Part shown: positions 16,112 through 19,411 of the stretch, one piece after another
Layout: each line of letters begins with the position of its first letter
How positions within the stretch are numbered: the stretch's first letter is position 1
Assembly (NCBI RefSeq): GCF_014879935.1
Contig: NZ_JACSRD010000114.1
Location: forward strand, 1-36,228
Direction of reading: 5' to 3'
DNA: 36,228 bases
Source: Prosthecobacter sp.
GTDB lineage: Bacteria > Verrucomicrobiota > Verrucomicrobiia > Verrucomicrobiales > Verrucomicrobiaceae
The notes under the pieces: generated by a model
Database searches by the model: none
What the model was told of the DNA's origin: nothing
The model's input: the letters and a program-made list of their open reading frames with translations, nothing else
Position numbers and translations under genes: made by a program

Positions 16112-17584
16112 ATGAACGATGACTTGCAGCAGTTGAAGGAAGCGATGGAGGCCATGCGCACTGACATGGATGCCATGAAAGCGAAGCTGGAGAAGATCGG
16201 GAGGGTGGTGACCATCCACGAAAAGGAGGACGGGAACTGGTTTGCCCACATTCGCTGCGCGCGCCTGAATGTGACACAAGGCCCGGAACATGAGCGCACG
16301 GCCGTGCACATCGGCTATAGCGAGATGGGCGGCATGATTTGGATCAACCGCCCCGAAGGGGAGCACCGTCGCGCCGTTTGGGTGGGCATGAATGACGAAG
16401 GCGAGCCCCAGGTGAAGCTGACTGGCGAGGACGGCCAAATGCGGGCCAACCTCTTCTGTGAGCGAGATCATGGGACACTGGCCGTGCTGGGGCCAGACAA
16501 TGCCGCAGGTGCGGTGATGCGCGCTCGTCCGGGCGGCGGCATGATGGCCGTGCTGCAGCCAGATGGAAGGGCGCGCGGGGTGTTGATTCACAGCGGGAGT
16601 GGCCCGAATCCAGGCGAGGAAGACGCGTCGGCGACGGAGCTGATCTTTGCGCGGGCCAATGGACAAACCACACTGAAACTGCGGTCCGATGACGGTGGCG
16701 GCATGGTCTTTACCGGCACACCCGATCAAACGGGCACGGCGGTCATGACGGCACGAAAGGGCGGCCCAGCGATGATTCTGCGAGGCAAGCAGGACGGCAC
16801 CACGGTCAGTCTGATGGCAGGTGATGACCTGGCCCGGGTGTCCGTGAATCAAGGCATGGTCGGCGACAAGCAGGCGGAAGCCGCCCTGATGGCGGGCGCC
16901 ACCGGCAGCTCGATCACGCTGAATGAATGTGATGGCACGAACCGCGTGGACATTTCTGCGAAACAGGACGGGGCGGTCCTTCAGCTTCTGGACGTCCATG
17001 GCAAAGCTGGCGTCGCTTTGAGCCACTACTCAGACAGTCATTCCAGCCTCGCCATGTCCGGCTCCGCTGCCCACGGCTGCGTGCGCATTGTGGCAAACAA
17101 AGACGCCGCGCTGCTGCGTGTTTCGTCTCCGGAAAACCCGGACACGGAAATCACTGCGGGGATCTACGAGGAGAAGCCCATGCTGATGATGCGGCAGAAC
17201 AAGGTGCCGCTGGTCATGGCGGGGCAGACGGAGCATGGCGGCGTGGTTTGTGCCTACGGTTCTCAAGAGGTGCAGGGTGGGATCGCCTCCCTGTCTGGAG
17301 GGCCGATGAGCGGCGTGCTTTCCATCAGCGCCCGGGATGGCACGCAGTTGATGACGTTGGATGGCACCGATCATGGCGGCCGGCTCATGATCAACAACGA
17401 CCTGGGTTTTCAGCGCATCATCATGGGCGTGCATCAGGAGGCGGCCTCGCTCGTTCTCAACAATACTGGCAGTAAGGGCGTGATCGCCGCCGCCCTCCCT
17501 CAAGGCGGCGTCATCAGCGTGTGCGATGCCGAAGGCCGTGTGACGCAAAGTTTGCCGTCCCCCGAGAATGAAGACGGGAATTAG
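16112..17584 (+). CDS. Hypothetical coiled-coil + beta-solenoid-like repeat protein
   Basis: A 490-residue protein of no recognised family. The first 32 residues (MNDDLQQLKEAMEAMRTDMD...) form a heptad-type coiled coil. From about residue 40 to the end it is a continuous run of short beta-strands separated by Gly/Asp turns, with degenerate units of about 20-25 residues such as GTLAVLGPDNAAGAVMRA, GGGMMAVLQPDGRARGVLIH and GGRLMINNDLGFQRIIMG. The pattern suggests a beta-solenoid, perhaps trimeric like phage fibre proteins with a coiled-coil stalk. There is no signal peptide or transmembrane segment, so it is cytoplasmic or released by another route. Its 3' end abuts the point where the ECF sigma remnant on the opposite strand breaks off. 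A function cannot be stated. Confidence 0.75.
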   Translation: MNDDLQQLKEAMEAMRTDMDAMKAKLEKIGRVVTIHEKEDGNWFAHIRCARLNVTQGPEHERTAVHIGYSEMGGMIWINRPEGEHRRAVWVGMNDEGEPQVKLTGEDGQMRANLFCERDHGTLAVLGPDNAAGAVMRARPGGGMMAVLQPDGRARGVLIHSGSGPNPGEEDASATELIFARANGQTTLKLRSDDGGGMVFTGTPDQTGTAVMTARKGGPAMILRGKQDGTTVSLMAGDDLARVSVNQGMVGDKQAEAALMAGATGSSITLNECDGTNRVDISAKQDGAVLQLLDVHGKAGVALSHYSDSHSSLAMSGSAAHGCVRIVANKDAALLRVSSPENPDTEITAGIYEEKPMLMMRQNKVPLVMAGQTEHGGVVCAYGSQEVQGGIASLSGGPMSGVLSISARDGTQLMTLDGTDHGGRLMINNDLGFQRIIMGVHQEAASLVLNNTGSKGVIAAALPQGGVISVCDAEGRVTQSLPSPENEDGN

Positions 17585-17775: not shown

Positions 17776-18483
17776 TCAACCGCGCTTCTGCGCGAAGAGC
17801 CACTCCCAGAACTCGGGGTTCGCATACGTCTGTGTCCACGAGTCGTGGCCGACGCCGGGATAGATGGTGAGTTTGACCGGTGCGTTGATCTTCTTCAGCG
17901 CGTCGAAGATCTTCTGGCTGTTTTCGACAGGCACCGCGCCGTCTTTGTCGCCGTGGAAGATCCAGCACGGCATGGATTTGAGGCGCTCGGCCGTGACCCA
18001 GCGCACACCGGCACCGCCGCAGACAGGTGCGATGGCGGCGTAGGTCTCCGGATACTCAAACGCGGTCTCCCAGGTGCCGAAGCCGCCCATGCTGAGGCCG
18101 GTGAGGTAAACGCGGCTGGTGTCGATGCGCTCCGTCTTGATGAGATGATCGGTGACGGCCTTCACCCCGTGCGGATTCCACAGTTCATTTTTCGGGCACT
18201 GCAAACTGGCGATCACGGCGGGGAGTTTCTCGCCGGCGGCGATGAGTTTCGGCGGGCCGTGCTTCTTGAGCTGCTCCAGATCGCTGCCACGCTCGCCACT
18301 GCCATGCAGAAAGATGACGAGCGGCCATTTCTTCTTCGCATCGGCCTCGTAGCCCTCCGGCTTGCTCAGCAGGTAGCTGTAATTGACCTTGATGACGAAA
18401 TCGCCGCTGAAGTTCTGCGGCGTCTGCGTGTCGGCGAGGGCGAGGGTGGCTGCGGCGAGGAAAAGGAAGGACGTTTTGACCAT
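17776..18483 (-). CDS. Exported alpha/beta-hydrolase (dienelactone hydrolase/esterase-like peptidase family)
   Basis: A 235-residue secreted hydrolase from ATG 18483, with signal peptide MVKTSFLFLAAATLALA. Residues 52-60 (KWPLVIFLHGSGERG) give the oxyanion-hole HGSG block. The nucleophile elbow is GLSMGG with S131, the acid is D181 in HGDKDGAVP, and the base is H213 in GVGHDSW, so the triad is complete. The architecture matches the short predicted-peptidase/phospholipase-carboxylesterase group often found in Bacteroidetes and Verrucomicrobia, where many act on polysaccharide-linked esters. An in-frame extension upstream to 18702 is composed of the REP-like array and is not coding. It is downstream of the zinc peptidase on the same strand but separated by the repeats. 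The substrate is unknown. Confidence 0.88.
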   Translation of the reverse strand: MVKTSFLFLAAATLALADTQTPQNFSGDFVIKVNYSYLLSKPEGYEADAKKKWPLVIFLHGSGERGSDLEQLKKHGPPKLIAAGEKLPAVIASLQCPKNELWNPHGVKAVTDHLIKTERIDTSRVYLTGLSMGGFGTWETAFEYPETYAAIAPVCGGAGVRWVTAERLKSMPCWIFHGDKDGAVPVENSQKIFDALKKINAPVKLTIYPGVGHDSWTQTYANPEFWEWLFAQKRG

Positions 18484-18545: not shown

Positions 18546-18714
18546 CGTAGGGCGGATGTGTTGGGCGGAAATAGTGCCGCTTCGTTCTGATGGGTCGTCG
18601 CCCAACTATCCGGCTCTGGGCGTATTCGCAACGTCCTCCAAAGCAGCCGGATAGTTCGGCGAACACGCCTCTCGTGCTGGTGAGGCTCAATGCGCCGAAC
18701 ACATCCGGCCTACG
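18546..18714. repeat. Four-copy alternating REP-like palindromic array
   Basis: A 17-22 bp motif with core CCGGATGTGTTCGGCG or CCGGATAGTTCGGCG occurs four times in alternating orientation: + at 18546-18567, - at 18599-18615, + at 18645-18661, - at 18693-18714. The gaps are 31, 29 and 31 bp. Copies 1 and 4 are inverted repeats matching 20 of 22; copies 2 and 3 match 16 of 17. The whole can fold into nested hairpins. It fills the space between two minus-strand genes and ends 1 bp before the stop of the zinc peptidase. The arrangement is like bacterial interspersed mosaic elements built of REPs. No RAYT transposase is in the window. Confidence 0.75.
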
Positions 18715-18715
18715 T

Positions 18716-19411
18716 TCAGCCCGGCCGTGATTTTCCCGTGCCGGGCAGGGCGCTGAGGAAGAAGTAGCGTGGGGAGCTGAAGAGATCGCCCACCTCGCGG
18801 ATGGCCATGCAGAAGAGCAGTTCGTTCAGGCGGCTGTGCGCCTGGCCGTGATTTTGCAGATGATCTTCGAGGAAGCGGCGGAGGCGCTTGTTGGCGTTCA
18901 GTTCGGTCGGAACGCTGCCGAGATTCAGCAACAGGAGGATCAGCAGGACGCCTGCGGTGATCAGGATGGCCATGCGCGGCACCAGCACGCGAAACAAGGT
19001 GAGCCCGGTGATGAGCAGAACGGCGACTGTGGGCAGATAGCGGCTCATGCGGATGCAGCTTTGCCTCCATTTGAGTTCGCCGAGGCTGTCGCCAGTCTGC
19101 AAGGCGTGCCCGGCTTCATGCAAGGCGACGGCCCAGGCGCTCAACGTGGTGCCCTGGGCGATGCTGCTGTGCAGAAAGAGGCGGCGGCGGACGGGATCGA
19201 AGTAATCGGTGACCAGCGCGTTGTGCTCGACGACCTGCACGTCCTCCACGCCCTCGGATTGGAGGAAGAGCAGGGCGATCTCCGCGCCGTTGTGCGCGGT
19301 GGGGGCGTTTGCCCGTGAACCCTTCGCCATCATCGAGGCATGCCTGCCCTGCGCCCAGCGGGCGAGGGCCATGCCAGCGAACAAAACGATGCCGAGAAGG
19401 ATGAAGGGCAT
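18716..19411 (-). CDS. Membrane zinc metallopeptidase (Zn_peptidase_2 / YugP-like)
   Basis: A 231-residue membrane protein. It has one hydrophobic segment at the N-terminus (MPFILLGIVLFAGMALARWA) and further segments around 125-143 and 148-165 (LPTVAVLLITGLTLFRVL, MAILITAGVLLILLLLNLG). The zinc-binding motif HEAGH is at 98-102 and is followed by ALQ, as in the YugP family; family members carry the third ligand after it. Peptidases of this family are uncharacterised or linked to membrane-protein turnover. The C-terminal tail (about LPGTGKSRPG) runs right up to the REP-like array, so its last residues may have been altered by repeat insertion. It is divergent from the beta-propeller gene, with 87 bp between the start codons. 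Confidence 0.87.
   Translation of the reverse strand: MPFILLGIVLFAGMALARWAQGRHASMMAKGSRANAPTAHNGAEIALLFLQSEGVEDVQVVEHNALVTDYFDPVRRRLFLHSSIAQGTTLSAWAVALHEAGHALQTGDSLGELKWRQSCIRMSRYLPTVAVLLITGLTLFRVLVPRMAILITAGVLLILLLLNLGSVPTELNANKRLRRFLEDHLQNHGQAHSRLNELLFCMAIREVGDLFSSPRYFFLSALPGTGKSRPG

Follow-up and report, generated by a model that had tools for sequence, protein, structure and literature searches.

A head-to-head pair of long-loop, GTAG-footed REP hairpins beside a Prosthecobacter zinc-peptidase gene, probably mobilised by a cognate RAYT transposase

The window, i.e. the whole stretch of 36,228 nucleotides analysed here, is contig C283 of a 7.74-Mb Prosthecobacter genome (G000; "own genome" below). 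It includes a gene for a putative neutral zinc metallopeptidase followed on the same strand by an alpha/beta hydrolase gene, and a compact repeat array lies between the two, bounded by GTAG and CTAC. The features of the locus are as follows.

17776–18483, minus strand: alpha/beta hydrolase gene (Pfam Peptidase_S9 / Abhydrolase_2), downstream gene, start 63 bp from the dimer
18547–18550, plus strand: GTAG foot of the left hairpin (motif search)
18547–18614, plus strand: left REP hairpin (covariance model 69.4 bits; family pair counts; DNA fold)
18551–18557 with 18608–18614, plus strand: lower stem of the left hairpin, one mismatch
18558–18559 (GT) against 18607 (T), plus strand: internal loop of the left hairpin
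18560–18567 with 18599–18606, plus strand: upper stem of the left hairpin
18568–18598, plus strand: loop of the left hairpin
18615–18645, no strand: spacer of 31 nt between the hairpins (15–43 nt among 12 dimers)
18646–18713, minus strand: right REP hairpin (covariance model 77.1 bits; DNA fold z −5.6)
18662–18692: loop of the right hairpin
18710–18713, minus strand: GTAG foot of the right hairpin (CTAC on the plus strand)
18716–19411, minus strand: putative neutral zinc metallopeptidase gene (Pfam Zn_peptidase_2), upstream gene, TGA stop 2 bp from the dimer

Four related motifs in alternating orientation, directly beside a stop codon, had been predicted for this place, and both statements hold. 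The motifs occupy 18551–18567 (+), 18599–18614 (−), 18646–18661 (+), and 18693–18709 (−), with gaps of 31, 31, and 31 nt; the earlier figures of 31, 29, and 31 had used slightly different unit ends. Two kinds of unit follow each other in the order A(+), B(−), B(+), A(−), i.e. A, B′, B, A′. Unit A (GCCGGATGTGTTCGGCG) has GTAG directly 5′ of it, both window feet being GTAG, and unit B (GCCGGATAGTTCGGCG) is footless; the left A and B of the window are altered (GGCGGATGTGTTGGGCG and GCCGGATAGTTGGGCG). The significance of the array rests in this arrangement rather than in the number of cores, as the core alone is not rare within the window (7 found with up to three mismatches vs 8.2 expected). Across the own genome, the short motif core occurs 25 times, against 3 for its control. 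An Rfam scan of the window yielded no family reaching the gathering threshold.

The array was also expected to be REP- or BIME-like and dispersed, and it is. Allowing up to three mismatches, the footed 21-mer occurs 26 times in the own genome and its reversed control 0 times. Twenty-four own hairpins were used to build a covariance model, which returned 42 matches in this genome, namely 27 primary hairpins (including all 24) and 15 opposite-strand readings of them, counts that represent a lower bound given that 150 of 8043 first-look candidates were scored. Overall, this gives a minimum of 13 head-to-head dimers plus a lone hairpin (C255) for the own genome, a modest number beside REP-rich genomes. 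These copies are dispersed and mainly intergenic, as in GTAG REPs, and none lies within a called gene. The same model matched 24 of 56 genomes (own included), all from the own genus (24 of 35), and 0 of 21 genomes from other genera of the same order. The array is thus not the isolated case, without further copies in the genome or in relatives, that would have spoken against a REP identity. In one relative, four dimers stand in tandem at ~190-bp steps, forming a higher-order array (G009:C74:42614–43371).

Two hairpins, standing head-to-head with their feet outermost, have the four motifs as their arms and together make one REP dimer. Each A pairs with the adjacent B into a single hairpin, composed of a GTAG foot, a 7-bp lower stem, a 2×1 internal loop, an 8-bp upper stem, and a loop of ~31 nt. 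The 24 own hairpins measure 66–70 nt with loops of 29–33 nt; in relatives, loops span 28–35 nt, with 31 or 32 nt in 99 of 122 hairpins. A reading as four separate REPs was rejected: the inner motifs are footless, and a single motif closes just a 4-bp stem. The A, B′, B, A′ plan was found at all 12 dimers laid out and at a 13th read by eye, and two oppositely oriented REPs, the hallmark of a BIME or REP dimer, recur in 13 head-to-head dimers of the own genome and 39 distinct ones of relatives. The original prediction had taken the even spacing for duplication of a BIME-like unit, an idea that the hairpin plan replaces. If four REPs had arisen here by copying a two-REP unit at ~48-bp steps, as a single local event, the equal 31-nt gaps of the window copy would follow; however, 12 other dimers follow the four-arm plan with middle spacers of 15–43 nt, the inner motifs lack feet, and neighbouring arms covary, all of which makes such a duplication extremely improbable. 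The even 48-bp step is instead accidental, since hairpin loops are steady in length (29–33 nt) and the middle spacer is variable (15–43 nt over the 12 dimers).

Pairing within each hairpin is supported by covariation. In the own set of 24 hairpins, pairing holds in 99.2% of cells, and double-sided changes occur at 5 of 15 stem pairs, a result reached in 0 of 500 shuffles; the most telling pair reads C-G in 11 hairpins, T-A in 11, G-C in one (window left), and T-G in one. In relatives (122 hairpins, 110 distinct), for which the alignment was model-fitted and hence biased towards structure, 98.7% of cells pair, double changes affect 9 of 15 pairs (matched by 8 of 500 shuffles), and the covariation score reaches 0.430, compared to an average of 0.180 for shuffles (0 of 500 as high); the measure of further pair types in these hairpins did not exceed that of shuffles (159 of 500). 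The foot is GTAG in 113 of the 122, GCAG in six, GTGG in two, and GTAC in one. Loops are barely more alike than shuffled ones (identity 0.517 vs 0.463), compared to 0.93 and 0.89 for the arms. Some loop positions nonetheless hold a purine or pyrimidine despite base change, e.g. A or G at loop position 7 in 23 of 24, which hints that loops are decaying by transitions from a common loop.

The same arms could also form one long palindrome, outer arm with outer and inner with inner, acting as a cruciform or transcript hairpin in which the two-hairpin form would be incidental. Energy prediction for the whole element indeed favours one long hairpin over two, the minimum-energy RNA folds of 12 elements pair the outer arms together, and the window transcript folds at −97.3 kcal/mol (z −3.3). 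Sequence conservation, however, argues for the local form: Watson-Crick pairing of upper stems is better locally than across the dimer (0.947 vs 0.782), in 49 of 51 dimers, and lower stems are neutral, without discrimination between the two forms (0.969 local vs 0.972 across, 51 dimers). We therefore consider the long palindrome quite improbable as the functional form and retain the pair of hairpins.

A candidate mover is encoded elsewhere in the own genome, where a Y1 transposase (RAYT) gene of 233 codons (G000:C157:25258–25959) sits exactly between two dimers, starting 6 nt past one of them and using a TAG stop that is within the GTAG of the next. This is the arrangement of a REPtron, a RAYT gene flanked by the same repeats. 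The protein has the features of a RAYT: HUH motif and catalytic Tyr are in place in the RAYT alignment (15 of 18 loci, excluding L131, which has an internal stop, and the partial L141 and L142; the ortholog L126 reads HAH), the NCBIfam model for REP-associated tyrosine transposases is passed narrowly (80.9, cut-off 80), and the family profile matches the solved TnpArep 4er8 (E 8.4e-6). Relatives of this RAYT with at least 53% identity were found in 18 of 48 genus genomes (own included). Hairpins of the window family were detected at 18 of 18 fetched loci of this RAYT clade (17 with E <1e-6, L139 weakly), and at 1 of 31 other Y1 transposase loci (C204, dimer ~1.4 kb away), a set of 12 loci from relatives and 19 of the own genome's 26 further Y1 matches. 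As originally suggested, the array is likely a substrate of its cognate RAYT, given this flanking and the tracking of RAYT divergence by the lower stems described below. Conversely, 14 of 24 hairpin-bearing genomes show no RAYT of at least 53% identity, which may reflect gene loss, draft gaps, or another mover, and G021, one of 11 surveyed RAYT-bearing genomes, gave no match in the genome survey and weak hairpins at its RAYT locus.

The nearly identical inverted ends, dispersed copies, and empty sites would also be expected of a MITE that carries terminal inverted repeats of 21 bp and is mobilised by a conventional DDE transposase. The gene between two copies, flanked across its clade, is however an HUH/Y1 RAYT, and no constant target duplication appears at the few sites read by eye, making a MITE very improbable and leaving the RAYT as the preferred mover. 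In a generic GTAG hairpin scan of 20 Y1 loci including C157, candidates were scattered and the window family was unlisted at C157, having been missed because the scan tolerates no more than one mismatch over the first nine stem bases. Other Y1 genes of the own genome (L013, L016, L019, L023, L027) are flanked by different repeats of their own, and several RAYT/repeat systems may thus coexist in this genome.

The two parts of the stem have distinct histories. Within the 39 distinct dimers of relatives, drawn from 41 loci (including two G014 regions and one G026 region), partner hairpins share an identical lower stem in 33 cases and an identical upper stem in one. An expectation for this comparison from random cross-species pairing (1.5 of 39) was discarded as an unfair null, given the relatedness among copies and among species. 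Partners in the own genome carry different upper-stem bases at pair 17 in 11 of 12 dimers (C31 dimer uncounted). Lower stems differ by lineage (GCCGGAT, GGCGGGT, GTTGGGT, GTTGGGC, GTCGGGA, GTCGGCC, and others), and their distance tracks RAYT distance (Mantel r 0.566, 0 of 20000 permutations, 13 loci), a correlation in which the species tree is still contained. The 13 are those of the 15 aligned RAYT loci with stems in that set (L134 and L139 dropped), stems of P0001 and L126 being entered by hand, and both the stem-identity and Mantel counts represent related copies rather than independent events. Across the genus, changes in the lower stem thus appear to go with the RAYT, and those in the upper stem with the paired arm alone. 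According to passages of PMC8266576, E. coli TnpAREP requires the foot, the bulge, and two lower-stem positions, upper stem and loop being structural only. The pattern observed here is the one that this mechanism predicts, and it fits a RAYT reading foot and lower stem, as published for E. coli.

A more speculative extension, possible in our view yet rather doubtful, is that the dimer has a selected division of labour. Foot and lower stem would form a recognition module common to both hairpins, required to be the same in each and co-evolving with the RAYT; upper stems would be kept unlike, letting every hairpin fold by itself and keeping the pair from closing into a long cleavable palindrome; and the fixed loop length would serve as a spacer or ruler. 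If true, this would explain the preference for REP heterodimers, for which Di Nocera et al. saw no obvious explanation in the passages of PMC3733652.

Comparison between genomes suggests that the window array is an insertion. The peptidase–hydrolase intergenic region is ~30 bp and element-free in G004, G067, G025, and G008, and the site is too short for the element in the more distant G030, G002, G027, and G020. Among the ten sequences compared, out of 45 of 48 genomes with some match, the site is empty in these eight relatives and filled in G026, whose element has loops that do not align with those of the window and may go back either to one old insertion shared with the window or to a second event. 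In G014, the peptidase-side copy keeps the stems, and its loops are 87% (right) and 64% (left) identical to the window's; judged from this sequence similarity, it is clearly the same element. At six other own gene ends, the element is absent from 29 of 30 fetched relative loci (65 places found).

G014 is peculiar in that its hydrolase and peptidase lie on separate contigs (L255, G014:C256; L256, G014:C411), each beside a dimer and a foreign gene. The two foreign genes adjoin each other in G067 (L289, G067:C11), where a palindrome pair of another kind, with short loops and with GTAG and CTAC at its ends, was seen by eye between them (~16716–16768). The layout in G014 resembles a reciprocal exchange whose two breakpoints both fall at REP dimers, although misassembly or mixing in this draft genome may also account for it. 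At another site (L062, G000:C37:60099–60274), convergent genes seem by eye to overlap in five relatives, and the own genome keeps both gene ends around the dimer, as if ~14 bp had been duplicated on insertion.

Own-genome copies lie close to stop codons. Based on gene calls from a simple codon model, 17 dimer or hairpin edges face a gene 3′ end, and the TAG of GTAG is the stop codon itself in eight of them; seven more lie 1–4 bp past the stop, and the remaining two are 30 bp (C95) and 413 bp (C255 single) away from it. GTAG as a pre-existing insertion target found no support at the sites read by eye: of nine relative loci at C157, L268 has GTAG at its end and the other eight TGA or TAA; of three empty loci at C127, L278 has GTAG and the other two TGA; and of seven loci at C204, three have TAG, which in one of them (L267) is part of GTAG.

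The position of 15 of the 17 edges, overlapping a stop codon or no more than 4 bp away, could also be read as the sign of a host regulatory element at gene 3′ ends, such as an mRNA stabiliser, attenuator, or gyrase/nucleoid site, kept by selection and with mobility being secondary. Stems that stay paired while loops drift, as in the G014 peptidase-side copy, would agree with this. Yet insertions are mostly confined to few lineages at the examined sites (29 of 30 relative loci empty), and a transposase gene is framed by two dimers, so that we regard a primarily regulatory element as unlikely; a regulatory function is compatible with the RAYT-mobilised dimer as a secondary role. A transcription stop, another function initially proposed, was not borne out, as a promoter and terminator scan picked up no T-tailed terminator within the array. 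The one terminator-like site that it did report (18826–18845) lies inside the peptidase gene and is within chance expectation.

Taken together, the array is very likely one copy of a non-autonomous mobile element, a head-to-head, GTAG-footed REP dimer (BIME/REPIN-like) mobilised by a cognate RAYT. The basis for this consists of dispersion, dimer architecture, covariation, RAYT flanking, empty sites, and the tracking of the RAYT by lower stems; the RAYT as mover, its cleavage, and a single-stranded intermediate are what we infer from these. In the proposed scenario, the RAYT (HUH/Y1, C157) would bind the foot and lower stem of each hairpin in single-stranded DNA, and cleave and rejoin beside them, so that the dimer would move as a unit. 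One such dimer would have inserted directly past the zinc-peptidase stop, splitting a gene pair that is closely spaced in relatives. In any transcript that covers both peptidase and hydrolase, the element would form strong hairpins, which could shield the end of the peptidase mRNA and reduce expression of the hydrolase.

The array belongs to a known kind of element, the GTAG-REP/RAYT system, in an unusual build. The window family has its lower stem, GCCGGAT/ATCCGGC, in common with an E. coli REP whose sequence was found in 5375 of 5426 E. coli genomes. This may be convergence, since other Prosthecobacter lineages carry other lower stems. Further likenesses to the E. coli y-REP/BIME with TnpAREP (RAYT group 2, Quentin subclass 2.2) are the GTAG foot and the internal mismatch between lower and upper stem, and E. 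coli likewise has inverted pairs of unlike REPs (y with z); the loop, in contrast, is a few nt there and ~31 nt here. Bertels and Rainey reportedly described the REPIN in 2011 as two inverted REPs forming a mobile unit together with a RAYT. The window family resembles REPINs in its inverted REP pair and RAYT and differs in that each half is a long-stem, long-loop hairpin.

Passages of Di Nocera et al. 2013 (PMC3733652) list 24 GTAG REP families, including one from Opitutus terrae (Verrucomicrobia), and describe features also seen here, i.e. the GTAG tag, head-to-head dimers, heterodimers, REPtrons, and location past genes; that GTAG ends often provide the TAG stop is already reported there. 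By the text and legends of that source, loops of these families are mostly 2–3 nt (9–15 in GTAG-15), and Bradyrhizobium REPs have loops of up to 27 nt with a complementary inner part, whereas those of the window family are 28–35 nt without conserved sequence. The family therefore has the GTAG-type foot and palindromic stem-loop of GTAG REPs and departs from their 20–40 bp unit with a short loop; lacking this short-hairpin feature, it is classed as a REP variant.

For the transposase, passages and tables of Quentin et al. 2018 (PMC6006769) give WE and DHLH for E. coli TnpAREP, vs WQ and NHVH in the 233-aa C157 RAYT, which marks it as a different type of RAYT from the E. coli protein. The C157 RAYT resembles subclasses 2.4 and 2.7, which share NHVH, WQ, and Y---NP and have long, GT[AG]G-footed REPs. 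Judged by motifs alone, HUH and WQ fit these two subclasses and Y does not: the tabulated Y motif is YIxNNP (2.4) or YI[LR][NQ]NP (2.7), and the 15 aligned orthologs mostly read YIA[KR]NP, with one YIANNP and one YLAKNP. The HUH-to-Tyr distance also differs, at 60 aa compared to a median of 88 in subclass 2.4 (PMC6006769). The automatic REP search described in passages of that source admits loops of 2–5 nt, or a further stem of 1–10 nt past the bulge, and hairpins of the window family would thus probably be missed. Passages of PMC3733652 and PMC6006769 carry no mention of a near-fixed long loop or of a shared-foot, private-top pattern tracking the RAYT. Similarly, Prosthecobacter is without mention among the REP/RAYT literature matches listed, a statement confined to those matches.

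Overall, these results extend RAYT/REP systems by a long-loop build that short-loop searches would probably miss, and do so in Verrucomicrobia, for which Opitutus terrae is the example named so far in the passages of PMC3733652. The window itself offers a case of an insertion that splits a gene pair and is sited at a stop codon. More broadly, the diverged versions across the genus amount to a natural mutational scan of RAYT recognition, and the question of why REPs form heterodimers becomes directly testable.
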